64,000 nt of DNA from Brachyspira pilosicoli (GCF_036997485.1 NZ_JAWLPU010000001.1:1-64000); one strand, 5' to 3'; positions 33,929-41,024 are shown, counted from the stretch's first letter. The notes: generated by a model not told the origin, from the letters alone. Numbers and translations: made by a program.

Positions 33929-34861
33929 ATGAACGAATATATAGTTTCTATAGGCGGCTCTAATATAGATATACAAGGCTTCTCCAAAGAAAATATTTTA
34001 TTAAAAGAATCAAACCCTGCAAAAATAAATATATGTACTGGAGGCGTTGAAAGAAATATTGTTCATAATTTATCAAACTTAGGTCTTTACAATATCAAGT
34101 TTATAACATCAATAGGAGATGATATATTCGGTGATATTCTTCTAAACAATATAAAATCGCTTAATATAGATACTTCGTACATTATAAAAAAAGGCTCTTC
34201 CACAACATATATGGCTATAATGAATAGTGATAAAGATATGTATTTAGCCGTTTCTGATATGGACGATTTAGACAAAAACATTACAATAGAATATTTAGAG
34301 AGTATAAAAGAAATAATAAAAAATGCAAATCTCATCACAATAGATGCCGTAATAAAAAGAGAGATTTTTGAATATTTAATAAAAAACTTTCCAGACAAAA
34401 AATTATTATGCGATGCTGTATCTGTAAAAAAAGCAGAAAATATAAAAGGATTAGAAAAACATATATATGCTCTAAAACTCAATTCAAATGAGGCTTCATT
34501 TCTTTTAGACAAAGACATTGGCACAATAGAAGATGGTTTGGAGGCGGTGAGTAGATTTATAGACATAGGAGTATCAGAAATATACATTACGTTTGCAGAA
34601 AAAGGAATATGCTACGCCTCTACTAAAACAAAACCAACACATATAAAAGCACCCAAAGTAAATATTTTAAATGCTTCAGGAGCAGGAGATGCATTTATGG
34701 CTGGTATAATTTATTCTATATACAATAATTTTGATTTAGATTATAAAGTAAAGTTTGCCGCCATTATGTCTATGCTCGCATTAGAAAGCGAAGAGACTGT
34801 CAGCAACAATATAAGTTTAGAAAATATTCATCAAAGACTAAAACTAATATTTAATTGCTGA
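33929..34861 (+). CDS. PfkB-family carbohydrate kinase, pseudouridine-kinase-like
   Basis: A 310-residue ribokinase-fold enzyme. IGGSNIDIQGFS at the N-terminus, NPAKINICTGGVERNIVHNL, and the catalytic NASGAGDAFMAGI near the C-terminus are family marks. The N-terminal pattern (GGSNIDI.G.S....SNP.KI....GGV.RNI..NL) is closest to PsuK/YeiC pseudouridine kinases. The usual partner pseudouridine-5'-phosphate glycosidase is not adjacent, so the substrate is tentative. AAGGAA lies upstream of the ATG. Confidence 0.75.
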   Translation: MNEYIVSIGGSNIDIQGFSKENILLKESNPAKINICTGGVERNIVHNLSNLGLYNIKFITSIGDDIFGDILLNNIKSLNIDTSYIIKKGSSTTYMAIMNSDKDMYLAVSDMDDLDKNITIEYLESIKEIIKNANLITIDAVIKREIFEYLIKNFPDKKLLCDAVSVKKAENIKGLEKHIYALKLNSNEASFLLDKDIGTIEDGLEAVSRFIDIGVSEIYITFAEKGICYASTKTKPTHIKAPKVNILNASGAGDAFMAGIIYSIYNNFDLDYKVKFAAIMSMLALESEETVSNNISLENIHQRLKLIFNC

Positions 34862-34920: not shown

Positions 34921-35274
34921 TTAAAACATCTTAGCTATTTCGATTTTTGTTTCTAATAAAGTTTTTCTTATCATTAATGTTTCTATATTACCTATCCTAT
35001 CTCTCTTTTTTATCATAATATAAAAGAGATATATTTTATTATATTCCCTATAACAAAATATTCTTATATCATGATACCTTATTTCCCATATATCATTTTC
35101 TATCTTTTTATAAAGTTTCTGCGGCGGCTGAATATTTAAAGAAAGCAAATGTGCAATATAATTAATTTTTTCATAAAGCATTCTTTTTCTTACAACTTTA
35201 TAGTCTATAAAGTTCTTTACCCAATCATGATAATATACTGTTATATTATCATTTGATAATAAGTATTTTAGCAT
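34921..35274 (-). CDS. RelE/HigB-like (phage Gp49-type) toxin homologue
   Basis: The 117-residue protein has the Gp49/HigB pattern: a helical N-terminus, then PPQKLYKKIENDIWEIRYHDIRIFCYREYNKIYLFYIMIKK, matching LEG.LWELR...RIFY......LLH.F.KK of the RelE-superfamily mRNA interferases. It overlaps the preceding transporter gene by seven bases and is the last gene of a three-gene unit. No HigA-type antitoxin follows; the only nearby HTH is in the first gene of the unit. Toxicity unproven. Confidence 0.6.
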   Translation of the reverse strand: MLKYLLSNDNITVYYHDWVKNFIDYKVVRKRMLYEKINYIAHLLSLNIQPPQKLYKKIENDIWEIRYHDIRIFCYREYNKIYLFYIMIKKRDRIGNIETLMIRKTLLETKIEIAKMF

Positions 35275-36545
35275 ATTAAATCCTCCTTCTTTTTATAAAA
35301 AATAATATATGATATTAAAGCATGAAAAATCATACCTAAACCAAACATAATAATTATAGTGTTCATATTAAAATTAATATAACCTCTTAATATATACACA
35401 ATACCATAATAAACAAAATTGATTATAATTGAATTTATAAGATTATAACTTGTCCTACCATAACCTATAAATATATTATCAGGTATAATAGACAAAGCAT
35501 AAAATATATAAAAAGGTGATAATTTTAATACTATAAAATATATATCATTATGATTTTCAAGCCTTTCAAGATATTGAAAGAATATATTTGAAAATAAAAC
35601 TAAAATAGCCCCTAAAAATGTAATTATAAATATTATTCTAAAATAATTTCCAACTTGGCTATTTTTCTGCTCTTTACAATTAGTTCTTATCACTTCATTC
35701 AAAGCTAATACAGGCATTAATAACCAATTCCATATAAAATTATTTGCTACCCAATAATTACCTTGTTCAGCAACAAGATTAACCATTTTTACTACCATTA
35801 AAGCATACACTATATTATCAACCAAAATTTGCAATGCTGAAAATATACCTATTTTGAAATATGAAATGAATATTTTTTTATCATCTTTAGAAAAGCCTGA
35901 TAATTTTAATAAACCCATTTTTACTAAAATAACAATACCCAATATTCCCATTAAAGTATTCATAATCATATTAGAATATGCTACACCGAAAGCATTGAAT
36001 CTTGATACTAAATTAAAATCTAATATCACAAGAAGCAAAGTCTTTATAAAGGCAAATATTATAAAAACTTTATATAATTCTTTTGATACTATAACTATAT
36101 TTACAGAAGTGATAATAAAACCAATTACAAATGCTATAGTCTCTAAATTTAAATATCTAGTAACTAAATCAATATCTGATTCATTTACATTCATAATTCC
36201 TATAAGGCTTCTTGATATTATGTAAACAATAATAGAGAATAAAAAATATAGCACAAATCCAACTGTTATAACTTTAAAAGTAACTTTTGGAAAATTAGCA
36301 TCATCATTTTTTATTACTCTGTTAAATATAGCATAAAGAGGTATATGCAAAAAAGCAAGTAATGTTTCATTGATTAAATCAAACCATTCAAGCTGCCCTA
36401 TAACATTAAATACAGATGAGTCTGTAGAAATTGAAATTATCATAGTTCTTATAGTTTGATATAATGCCGGAAACAAAGATAAAAATATTAAAGAAAAATA
36501 TAACTTGTAATTAAAATTTTTCAAATGAAAAACATTTTTAATCAT
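35268..36545 (-). CDS. MATE-like polytopic transporter/flippase
   Basis: A 425-residue protein with about twelve hydrophobic segments, resembling MATE/MOP-superfamily transporters in layout (two halves with GVAYSNMIMNTLMGILG at the end of the first half). It is divergent from the canonical MATE gene at 39684-41024. It lies 14 bases after the HTH-phosphotransferase gene and overlaps the RelE-like gene. The partner kinase suggests a phosphorylated solute, by analogy with choline kinase/permease loci. Substrate unknown. Confidence 0.65.
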   Translation of the reverse strand: MIKNVFHLKNFNYKLYFSLIFLSLFPALYQTIRTMIISISTDSSVFNVIGQLEWFDLINETLLAFLHIPLYAIFNRVIKNDDANFPKVTFKVITVGFVLYFLFSIIVYIISRSLIGIMNVNESDIDLVTRYLNLETIAFVIGFIITSVNIVIVSKELYKVFIIFAFIKTLLLVILDFNLVSRFNAFGVAYSNMIMNTLMGILGIVILVKMGLLKLSGFSKDDKKIFISYFKIGIFSALQILVDNIVYALMVVKMVNLVAEQGNYWVANNFIWNWLLMPVLALNEVIRTNCKEQKNSQVGNYFRIIFIITFLGAILVLFSNIFFQYLERLENHNDIYFIVLKLSPFYIFYALSIIPDNIFIGYGRTSYNLINSIIINFVYYGIVYILRGYINFNMNTIIIMFGLGMIFHALISYIIFYKKKEDLIC

Positions 36546-36559
36546 GATTATAAACTCCT

Positions 36560-38359
36560 TTATTTTTGATGAACTATTTTTGTTATTATATCCCTATTAA
36601 ATCTTACCCAAATTTTACTCCATTCCACCCATTCATATATTCGTATATACTCTTTAGAATCTCGTCCGTATTTTTCTTTTGCCTCCTGCTGTTTTGAGTC
36701 CATAACTTTTTTCATTTTATCAACAAAATCTTTTCTAACTTTATCATTTGGGTTATAGTATTTGATTATTTTCTCAAAGTAATCTAATAATTGCTCATGC
36801 TTTCTATCTAATGCCCCTATATTTGACCAAGTCCATATAATATAAATTAAATCCTCATACTCCTCTCCTATTTTACAATGCTCCCAATCTATTATTCCAG
36901 TAATTTTACCCTTATTATTAAACACAGCATTCAAAGGACTTAAATCATTATGAACATAAACCTTACCTTTTAAATGTTTTTTTGATATTTCATTAATTTC
37001 TTTGATTGTATCAAGAACCTGATATATTTTTTCTATAGGCATAGTATAAACATATTTTTCTGTGTTGCCTTTAATATACTCAAATATATCCTCATTATTT
37101 TCATTCCCATAATATTTTGGAACTTTTTTGTAATTATTTTGTTCCATAAATTTTAGAAACTCATATTCTTTTTCATTATTGGATCTAGTTTTATAGACTT
37201 TATTGTCTTCAATTCTGATTTTATTATTTGTTATAATCGATGATTTTGAAAATCTATTAGATAATTTTTCAAAATCTTTTTTAATACTTCCGTCAATAAC
37301 CGAAGAATCATGCTTATTATATCTGAATATTAATGCAGCTTTATTGTTTTTCCAAAAAGAAGAGTAATATATTTTATCAGAATAAATATCTTTATCTATA
37401 TAATCAAATTCTAAATCTTCTATAGATACATTAGCAGCACTTATTTCATTTTCATATATCTCTTTATGTATAATATCATTGTATCTTGATAAAAGAGAAT
37501 CTATTTTTTTTAATTTATCCCACCCATTACATTCTTTGTATATAGAATAAGAATGATTTATCCTATCAAAAATAAATAAAATGATAATATTAAATGAATA
37601 TACTTCATAATTATTATCTTTATACAAAAAATAATCAGCTTTATAATCTTCATCTTCTAAAAAGAATAAATTAAAAAGATTATCATTTTGTATAATTTTA
37701 TCTATTAATTCTTGATATTTGGATATATTCTTTTTAAATACAGTATTAAAATCAAAACTTCCGCCTATCTTAATTTCAATATCATCTTTTTTTAATAACT
37801 CATCAAAACTGCTTTCAGAACATAAATGAAAATTCAATATATTAGAAAGATACTCAGGCTTTTTATCAATTATAATATCTATAATGCCAAATACATTTTC
37901 AGTATTTAAATACTTTATTAAATCATTATCAATTAAATACTTAATACCATTTATAGATTTATAGTCAATAATATAGTCAGCTATATTTTTATTATATTCA
38001 TCATATATGTATATGATATTGTTTTCAATTTTTAGTTCCTGCAATAAACTTTTATACTTTTCTTCATTATCTATATATGCAGCATATCTTAATCCTCTAG
38101 GTATAAATTCATTAAGATTTTTACTCTCTCCATTAAGAATATAATCAAGAGTAGTTTTTAATTTTCTCTCTATTAGAGGTATATATTCATATTTAAAATT
38201 TCTTTTACCAGAAATCATTTTAGAGAAATTAGTTTTTATAGTATTATAATCAGATTCTTTACCTTCAGTTTCTTCAATCAAATACATAATCAAATCTTTA
38301 TAGTTAAGATTATTATTTTTTAAAAGCTCTAAAATTCTATTCTCTTTATCTGAAGTCAT
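36560..38359 (-). CDS. HTH domain fused to aminoglycoside/choline-kinase-like phosphotransferase
   Basis: This 599-residue protein starts MTSDKENR after GGGAG. Residues about 1-80 resemble an XRE-type helix-turn-helix (SDYNTIKTNFSKMISGKRNF, followed by LIERKLKTTLDYIL). Residues about 90-200 look like degenerate ankyrin-type helical repeats. The C-terminal third is an APH/ChoK kinase with the Brenner motif HNDLSPLN (His470, Asp472, Asn477) and IIDWEH (Asp491). The combination of a DNA-binding domain and a small-molecule kinase is uncommon. It leads a unit with a MATE-like transporter and a RelE-like toxin. TTGTCA repeats lie upstream of its promoter. Confidence 0.7.
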   Translation of the reverse strand: MTSDKENRILELLKNNNLNYKDLIMYLIEETEGKESDYNTIKTNFSKMISGKRNFKYEYIPLIERKLKTTLDYILNGESKNLNEFIPRGLRYAAYIDNEEKYKSLLQELKIENNIIYIYDEYNKNIADYIIDYKSINGIKYLIDNDLIKYLNTENVFGIIDIIIDKKPEYLSNILNFHLCSESSFDELLKKDDIEIKIGGSFDFNTVFKKNISKYQELIDKIIQNDNLFNLFFLEDEDYKADYFLYKDNNYEVYSFNIIILFIFDRINHSYSIYKECNGWDKLKKIDSLLSRYNDIIHKEIYENEISAANVSIEDLEFDYIDKDIYSDKIYYSSFWKNNKAALIFRYNKHDSSVIDGSIKKDFEKLSNRFSKSSIITNNKIRIEDNKVYKTRSNNEKEYEFLKFMEQNNYKKVPKYYGNENNEDIFEYIKGNTEKYVYTMPIEKIYQVLDTIKEINEISKKHLKGKVYVHNDLSPLNAVFNNKGKITGIIDWEHCKIGEEYEDLIYIIWTWSNIGALDRKHEQLLDYFEKIIKYYNPNDKVRKDFVDKMKKVMDSKQQEAKEKYGRDSKEYIRIYEWVEWSKIWVRFNRDIITKIVHQK

Positions 38360-38392
38360 ATATATCTCCCAATGCAATCATTTTTATAATAT

Positions 38393-38421
38393 AAATATAG
38401 CATAATACAGTATAAAGTCAA
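38393..38421 (-). promoter_or_regulatory. promoter of the HTH-phosphotransferase operon
   Basis: On the minus strand TTGACT (38421-38416), 17 bases, TATATT (38398-38393), about 35 bases before the ATG. Confidence 0.5.
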
Positions 38422-38428
38422 TAATAAA

Positions 38429-38502
38429 GTTGTCAAAAATAAAAAAATAGTTGTCATTTTTTATTTAAAAATAATTGTCTAAATATAACTAAAAAGTTGT
38501 CA
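38429..38502. promoter_or_regulatory. cluster of four TTGTCA direct repeats, possible operators
   Basis: GTTGTCA occurs at 38429-38435, 38450-38456 and 38496-38502, with ATTGTCT at 38474-38480. Start-to-start spacing is 21, 24 and 22 bases, close to two helical turns. They sit just upstream of the -35 of an operon whose first protein has an HTH domain. Confidence 0.4.
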
Positions 38503-39683: not shown

Positions 39684-41024
39684 ATGGAACTTAATAATCA
39701 ATCTTTAATAGAAAATAGCAGTATAAAACTATTTTTTAAATTTGCCATACCAAGCATTTTGGGTATGATTATGGGAAGTGCTGCAGTATTTGTAGACGGT
39801 TTTTTTGTAGCACATTTTATCTCTGCTAATGCCTTTACAGCAATTAATATAGTTTGGCCAATCACTGCTTTATCGTTTGGCATTTATGTAATGCTTACAA
39901 TAGGCTCTATTGCACTCGCTGGTAAATGCATTGGCGAAAACAATATAAGGCGAGCTAATTTAATATTCACTCAAACTTTAATTGTAGTTCTTACAATAGC
40001 AACTTTGCCTCTTATAATAGCATATATATTCAGAACTAATTTACTTCCATTATTCGGAGCTCATGGAGAAATATATCAGTTATCATTAGATTATATTGAA
40101 GGTGTATTATTTGCTACATTTTTTTGGGGGATAGCGTATGTGCTTAGTCAGTTTGTAAGGCTTAATGGTTCTCCGAAATTTGCTTCTTTAATGTTTATAA
40201 TATCTTCTATAGCAAATATGATATTAGACCCTATTTTTATTGTAGTTTTTAAGTTAGGAATTTCTGGGGCTGCCTGGGCTACTGCAATATCTCAAATGAT
40301 TGCATTTATTATGGGGTTGTTATACTTCTTTAAGCCAAACTGCAAATTAAAAATTATAAAAGTTTATGGAGGCTGGATTTATATATTAAAAGCTTCATTT
40401 AATGGGTTTTCGGAATTTTTAAGTAATCTATCTTCAGGGCTTATACCTTGGCTATTTAATATCACCGCATACAACATTTCTGGTAATAACGGAATACTTG
40501 TTTATTCTGTTGCTAATTATGCTATAATGTTTTTTATAATGCTTGCATATTCTATTGGTGAAGCATTAGAGCCGCTTGTAAGTGTTTCTTATGGAGCTAA
40601 AAACAAAAACCGAATGAAAGATTTTCTAAAAATATCAATATTTTTAATTTCTATCATATCAATATTAATATCAATTATATTGTTAATAAATCCAAGTTCA
40701 TTAGTGAATATGCTTTTGCAAGATGTTGATGTAAAAACATTTGAAGAAGCTAATTTTTTTGTAAGAGCATCAATACCTACATTTATAGGTGTTGGAATAA
40801 ATATTATAATGAGTGCCTACTACACATCAGTACAAAAGGCAGGGGCTTCAGCAATAGTAGCAGCTTTAAGAAGTACAATACTCCCAATAGCTTTAGTATT
40901 AACTTTGCCTAATATAATAGGTTTTATAGGTTTAATTTTAGTTCTTCCTATAAGCGAAATAGCAACCTTAATTGTTTCTGTGCTGTTATACAAAAATAGA
41001 AAACCAGATGTTTTAATTAGTTAG
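39684..41024 (+). CDS. MATE family efflux transporter
   Basis: A 446-residue, twelve-helix transporter of the MATE family, near the MepA/DinF type. Typical features are FAIPSILGMIMGSAAVFVDGFFVAHF, LNGSPKFASLMFIISSIANMILDPIF and GISGAAWATAISQ. It should export cationic drugs or metabolites in exchange for Na+ or H+. The ATG lies 55 bases from a good promoter but without an obvious ribosome site. It is transcribed alone. Confidence 0.87.
   Translation: MELNNQSLIENSSIKLFFKFAIPSILGMIMGSAAVFVDGFFVAHFISANAFTAINIVWPITALSFGIYVMLTIGSIALAGKCIGENNIRRANLIFTQTLIVVLTIATLPLIIAYIFRTNLLPLFGAHGEIYQLSLDYIEGVLFATFFWGIAYVLSQFVRLNGSPKFASLMFIISSIANMILDPIFIVVFKLGISGAAWATAISQMIAFIMGLLYFFKPNCKLKIIKVYGGWIYILKASFNGFSEFLSNLSSGLIPWLFNITAYNISGNNGILVYSVANYAIMFFIMLAYSIGEALEPLVSVSYGAKNKNRMKDFLKISIFLISIISILISIILLINPSSLVNMLLQDVDVKTFEEANFFVRASIPTFIGVGINIIMSAYYTSVQKAGASAIVAALRSTILPIALVLTLPNIIGFIGLILVLPISEIATLIVSVLLYKNRKPDVLIS

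Follow-up and report, generated by a model that had tools for sequence, protein, structure and literature searches.

A 64,000-nucleotide stretch of Brachyspira pilosicoli DNA (NZ_JAWLPU010000001.1:1-64000, referred to here in its entirety as the window) carries on its minus strand three intact, co-oriented open reading frames (ORFs), coding in order for a protein that joins a predicted helix-turn-helix (HTH) domain, a helical repeat-like middle and an APH-type kinase domain (KIN), for a MATE transporter, and for a small HigB-like protein (REL). There is strong computational evidence that KIN probably autoregulates through TGACAACT boxes in its own promoter, and the reading that we favour, tentatively and with somewhat less than even confidence, is that the three genes form an autoregulated operon for small-molecule detoxification or resistance, with a fused repressor-enzyme at its centre. 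The individual parts are all members of known families, and there are precedents both for fusions of an HTH with an enzyme and for tandems of a kinase with an efflux pump, but the literature searched contains no description of a single protein that combines a Cro/CI-type HTH, a helical middle and an APH kinase and is encoded beside a MATE transporter.

The three genes are real, under purifying selection and more than a chance arrangement, since three species share the trio and the ratios of non-synonymous to synonymous substitution (dN/dS) are low. Against the G024 genome these are 0.16 for KIN, 0.22 for MATE and 0.28 for REL, and against G017 they are 0.31, 0.17 and 0.41. The spacing given in the original prediction is confirmed, with 14 bases between the KIN stop codon and MATE and a 7-base overlap of MATE and REL that points to translational coupling. 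An ATG start for KIN is preferred to the TTG start of a mechanically generated ORF list because GGGAG lies six bases before the ATG.

Autoregulation is argued for by the KIN promoter, where three exact boxes and one degenerate copy form an array at 21-24 base spacing that ends just upstream of the -35 hexamer. The three exact copies of TGACAACT in this array are all the copies in the window on either strand, and boxes are also kept in the KIN promoters of G024 and G017. Among 31 whole genomes searched for two boxes 10-18 bases apart, the tandem pair occurs once per genome in three, which are exactly the KIN carriers and have it always in the KIN promoter, and it is absent from the other 28. 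The reversed pattern used as a control gave many matches in some genomes and is not a clean background, so we rely instead on base composition, from which we estimate about 0.01 tandem pairs per genome, and on the promoter position of the pairs. The reversed pattern itself (TCAACAGT-N10-18-TCAACAGT) is present in up to 27 copies in some Brachyspira species and so suggests that their genomes contain a repeat based on it.

The same box accompanies relatives of the N-terminal part of KIN that stand alone. One is a 368-residue protein (L070) of the genome G326, and the other is a 369-residue ORF on a phage contig (L127, IMGVR_UViG_3300028048_001869); the two share 41% identity along 366 residues, and each is about 40% identical to KIN over residues 39-145. 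The L070 promoter has an inverted repeat with a 4-base spacer, AATAGTCA-TAAT-TGACAACT, and the L127 promoter has two, also with 4-base spacers, AGTTGTCA-TATT-TGACAGAT and AGTTGTCG-TGAA-TGACTACT. In scans allowing three or fewer mismatches, the promoter site is the sole one in the G326 genome with two or fewer, and the L127 record has just two sites, both in the promoter of the HTH-repeat gene. Shuffled versions of each promoter (4000 shuffles) seldom attain its box score, with p 0.00025, the floor of the procedure, for four promoters and p 0.004 for that of G326. Conservation of the box is thus tied to the HTH gene, and we infer from it that KIN binds this DNA. The Brachyspira boxes are direct rather than inverted repeats, so the mode of binding may differ from that of the standalone relatives. 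One box copy reads TTGACA and could itself act as a -35 element, which favours repression over activation. The original prediction had called the cassette self-regulated, and the conserved boxes lend that claim strong support. As to where such relatives occur, the L127 gene (L127:4001-5086, plus strand) lies directly after tail and holin genes, possibly as a lysogenic-conversion or phage regulator gene; it is the one HTH-repeat relative among viral contigs, and named phages have no relative of KIN or of the L127 protein. A scan of the all-genome collection returned a Brachyspira relative only, from a sample in which clades outside the spirochaetes are poorly represented.

The HTH and repeat regions of KIN are covered by no Pfam or PADLOC model. 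Pfam scans of KIN and its relatives found no match for the HTH, and with PHROGs the relatives gave only a sub-threshold match to phrog_4 (transcriptional repressor). An AlphaFold2 model of residues 1-104, built from five sequences, has a predicted local distance difference test score (pLDDT) of 79.5, and in VIA-align its best match is the P22 c2 repressor (Z 7.7, 64 residues), with ImmR, SinR, the 434 repressor and Cro also found. Nearly all of the top structural matches are Cro/CI-type repressors, at Z 7-7.7 over 63-65 residues, values that call for caution in that Z is below 8 for a small helical domain and the Foldseek E-values are not significant. The recognition region, KxNFSKM..G.R..KYE.I, is invariant across five relatives. 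We are therefore fairly confident that the modelled N-terminus has a Cro/CI-type HTH fold, in keeping with the XRE-like domain first proposed for it. The model also matches ComR and PrgX, in which an XRE-type HTH is followed by a C-terminal helical sensor; KIN differs in having a kinase after the middle, and its likeness to them derives from the HTH model, the middle having no shown sequence similarity.

The ankyrin-like repeats of the original prediction were not confirmed: Pfam Ank has no match in three family members, and no resemblance emerged when one ankyrin protein of Brachyspira was compared. No other Pfam model matches the middle region, and a profile search of the PDB with the N-terminal 370 residues gave nothing meaningful. 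A structure prediction for full-length KIN from three sequences had a mean pLDDT of 36.9, was unusable, and was not used. The C-terminal part matches Pfam APH (PF01636) at 37.7 bits (cut-off 23.2, E 2.5e-9), and a three-sequence kinase profile ranks AAC/APH structures first in the PDB (4ork, E 4e-5). With both kinase motifs intact, as had been noted at the outset, KIN is predicted to be a small-molecule kinase.

The MATE protein has full-length similarity to MATE profiles (TIGR00797, E 2e-6) and matches NF045539, a model of Na+-driven efflux proteins, at 288.8 bits and E 7e-86 over residues 11-411, though below the curated cut-off of 350. Its relative in G382, a genome of a distant spirochaete genus, is above that cut-off at 363.4 bits. 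The transporter call is thus sustained, but uptake, as first proposed for the cassette, sits poorly with an efflux family, membership of which suggests export. A separate NF045539-like MATE gene in G031 (L124:7255-9767, plus strand) shares one base with the gene for a small P-loop kinase-like protein, which makes a second pairing of a MATE transporter with a kinase.

REL alone scores just under the Pfam Gp49 cut-off (21.1 against 23.9 bits), and a seven-sequence profile, built in part from Brachyspira HigB proteins with a neighbouring HTH antitoxin, matches HigB of Streptococcus pneumoniae (6af3) at E 3.3e-8. The RelE-like assignment is therefore upheld in the sense that REL appears to be a HigB/RelE-superfamily homologue and a putative toxin. 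Orphan HigB-like proteins 48% identical to REL are found in two other Brachyspira (L048:4605-4955 and L049:4473-4823, both minus strand), where their genes adjoin a lepA-like GTPase gene and have no antitoxin gene.

The three genes co-occur in other genomes, as the original prediction supposed. Among 26 Brachyspira genomes searched, including that of the window, the full trio is present in three, each from a different species. KIN of G024 is 93% identical to that of the window, and KIN of G017 is 66% identical over the part held, a contig break falling inside the gene with both pieces and the gene order in agreement. Four more species (G020, G005, G006 and G018) have MATE orthologues at 80-83% identity with neither KIN nor REL, so that MATE appears to be the stable element and KIN and REL the variable ones; in G018 the frame of the orthologue (L040:7883-9034, minus strand) is disturbed, as if decaying. 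G024 and G017 have a SUFU-domain gene upstream of KIN in divergent orientation; in G020, where KIN is missing, this gene is likewise divergent and directly adjoins MATE, and in the window KIN does not have it as a neighbour. Neither G017 nor G020 is firmly placed in the MATE tree, which is compatible with both several losses of KIN and two gains.

Outside Brachyspira, the closest MATE protein among 393 genomes of the phylum is that of G382 (704 bits, 45% identity; the next scores 303 bits), and the best relative of the KIN kinase adjoins it in convergent orientation. The same convergent pair is found in G505 and G528, of the same genus, and the three kinases are about 43% identical to that of KIN. 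Only kinase and MATE are thus shared with this distant genus, and the comparison shows the kinase and this MATE subfamily travelling together there in a different orientation. No HigB-like gene lies beside the G382 pair. The kinase relative of G268 has a broken frame and no MATE adjoining, and G326 has a truncated MATE, 46% identical to that of the window, on a contig other than that of L070.

In the mechanism that we favour, the HTH of KIN would bind the TGACAACT boxes abutting the -35 hexamer and keep the operon low. A toxic or natural-product small molecule that enters the cell would bind the kinase or the helical middle, KIN would leave the boxes, and the levels of kinase and pump would rise together; the kinase would then phosphorylate the compound and the MATE transporter expel it, with the HigB-like protein as a translationally coupled accessory. 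The regulatory step draws on strong comparative evidence, the proposed kinase step on the intact motifs, the suggested export step on family membership only, and the suggested joint action of kinase and pump on the operon structure together with the distant kinase-MATE pairs. There are precedents in macrolide resistance for kinase-efflux tandems, mef(C)-mph(G) among them, and for an inducible repressor controlling mph(A) (PMC11215539). These units and mph(A)-mrx-mphR(A) resemble the present one in having an APH-superfamily kinase that is served by a dedicated repressor or stands in tandem with an efflux pump, but here the regulator is fused to the kinase and the transporter is MATE rather than MFS; the similarity is of the generic APH kind, with no match to an Mph model in Pfam or NCBIfam. 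An extended version is more doubtful: that KIN is a one-protein resistance switch in which the kinase domain itself senses the drug and the kinase-pump promoter is freed once the compound is bound or phosphorylated, and that it belongs to a family of HTH-repeat regulators, some phage-borne, sharing one conserved operator across distant hosts.

Several observations weigh against a detoxification operon. It is rare, and in G005, G006 and G020 the occurrence of MATE alone implies a role without the kinase. The KIN operon was not seen on plasmids or phages, where plasmid relatives are generic APH proteins only; most acquired resistance genes, by contrast, are found on plasmids or phages. Kinases of the APH type also have sugars, amines and other metabolites as substrates. 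The kinase genes of G382, G505 and G528 look truncated, because the HTH and part of the middle are lost and, in G382, a stop codon precedes the gene. To these may be added a window MATE that falls below the NF045539 cut-off and has no relative among solved structures in a profile search by sequence, and a HigB-like gene that the model leaves unexplained.

Alternatively, KIN would be a metabolic trigger enzyme resembling NadR, phosphorylating a nutrient or cell-envelope precursor (an alcohol, amine or nucleoside-like compound) moved by the MATE transporter and repressing its own operon according to the level of metabolite or ATP, a proposal that we regard as unlikely. NadR, a repressor, NMN adenylyltransferase and ribosylnicotinamide kinase, likewise combines an N-terminal HTH with a small-molecule kinase and has a transporter gene among its targets (PMC12421817). 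The box-dependent autoregulation applies equally to this proposal, and a housekeeping solute would account more readily than a drug for the related species that keep MATE alone. However, this MATE family is of efflux type whereas NadR works with an importer, the operon includes no metabolic gene, and its distribution within the genus is patchy. KIN would work like NadR without being a member of its family, given an APH-type kinase, MATE in place of PnuC, a helical middle and a different DNA box; Pfam and NCBIfam scans of KIN found neither an adenylyltransferase nor a ribosylnicotinamide kinase family. The regulatory logic is the same as that of the detoxification operon, and the two proposals differ in the direction of transport. 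A choline uptake unit like LicCA was rejected, there being no cytidylyltransferase nearby and no support from a literature search, and is retained just as part of this proposal.

The genes may also have no joint function, if a self-regulating HTH-kinase, its regulator domain being selfish or of phage origin, and a stray HigB-like gene were inserted beside a resident MATE. The four species with MATE and neither of the other genes, the SUFU-domain gene directly beside MATE in G020, and the HTH-repeat part alone in a phage contig all agree with this. Against it are the tight spacing, the common promoter and the purifying selection that acts on each of the three genes, as well as the kinase relatives of a distant genus, which adjoin members of this MATE subfamily in another orientation, and we think it decidedly unlikely. 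Weaker than either the NadR-like or the detoxification proposal, and improbable in our view, is a toxin-antitoxin or abortive defence module in which an mRNA-cleaving HigB-like toxin is held by the HTH of KIN, with the kinase or pump as the sensor of infection or stress. It can call upon the homology of REL to HigB, its coupling to MATE, the autoregulation typical of antitoxins, and true HigB proteins in other Brachyspira, about 29% identical to REL over the alignment, that have an adjacent HTH antitoxin. In contrast to HigBA, no HTH ORF or HigA gene adjoins REL, the sole HTH being in the kinase fusion two genes upstream, and REL has orphan relatives without an antitoxin. In the REL proteins of the trio, Tyr, Asn or Asp stands where 6af3 and the orphan Brachyspira relatives have the histidine of the LLHxxxKK stretch. 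REL is also the most variable of the three genes, and is missing both beside the G382 pair and beside MATE in species lacking KIN. None of the PADLOC defence models matches any of the three proteins (E<=1) and nothing points to phage defence, so that the stress or defence function originally suggested finds no support there.

Table 1. Features of the KIN-MATE-REL locus (window coordinates unless a locus is named)
Feature	Position	Strand	Basis or remark
KIN, HTH-repeat-kinase gene, 599 amino acids, ATG start	36560..38359	-	ORF calls; orthologues 93% (G024), 66% (G017)
MATE transporter, NF045539-type, 425 amino acids	35268..36545	-	NCBIfam; orthologues 78-94% in other Brachyspira, 45% in G382
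REL, probable HigB/RelE-superfamily (Gp49-like) protein, 117 amino acids	34921..35274	-	Just under Pfam cut-off; profile match to HigB 6af3
Probable Cro/CI-type HTH domain, KIN residues ~1-78	38126..38359	-	AlphaFold2 model and structural matches
Helical repeat-like middle, KIN residues ~79-370	37250..38125	-	Homology to standalone L070 and L127 proteins; ankyrin nature not confirmed
APH-type kinase domain, KIN residues ~376-599	36563..37234	-	Pfam PF01636
Catalytic loop HNDLSPLN, KIN residues 470-477	36929..36952	-	Intact; Asp and Asn retained in relative L068
Metal-binding motif IIDWEH, KIN residues 489-494	36878..36895	-	Intact motif
Ribosome-binding site GGGAG, 6 bases 5' of KIN ATG	38366..38370	-	Sequence
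Core promoter TTGACT-16-TATATT (-35/-10)	38394..38421	-	Kept in three species
Predicted operator box 1, TGACAACT (-76)	38428..38435	-	Exact box
Predicted operator box 2, TGACAACT (-97)	38449..38456	-	Exact box
Degenerate box, AGACAATT (-121)	38473..38480	-	Retained in G024
Predicted operator box 4, TGACAACT (-143)	38495..38502	-	Exact box
SUFU-domain gene, G024 locus	L037:2250-2921	-	
SUFU-domain gene, G017 locus	L005:5117-5785	-	
SUFU-domain gene, G020 locus	L003:1719-2402	+	

Two neighbours of the cassette lie on the plus strand. The next gene downstream, at 33929-34861 and convergent with the cassette, codes for a PfkB kinase closest to pseudouridine kinase, and a second, unrelated MATE gene (FepA/MepA-like) is located about 1.3 kb upstream, at 39684-41024.

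With a repressor-kinase fusion encoded next to an efflux-type pump, one polypeptide would unite the sensing, modification and control of a compound. The TGACAACT operator predicted here, common to Brachyspira, a distant spirochaete and a phage contig, offers a handle on a family of HTH-repeat proteins that has no Pfam model. Moreover, an APH-type domain beside a MATE transporter in a gut genus with animal pathogens among its members may represent an unrecognised resistance determinant.

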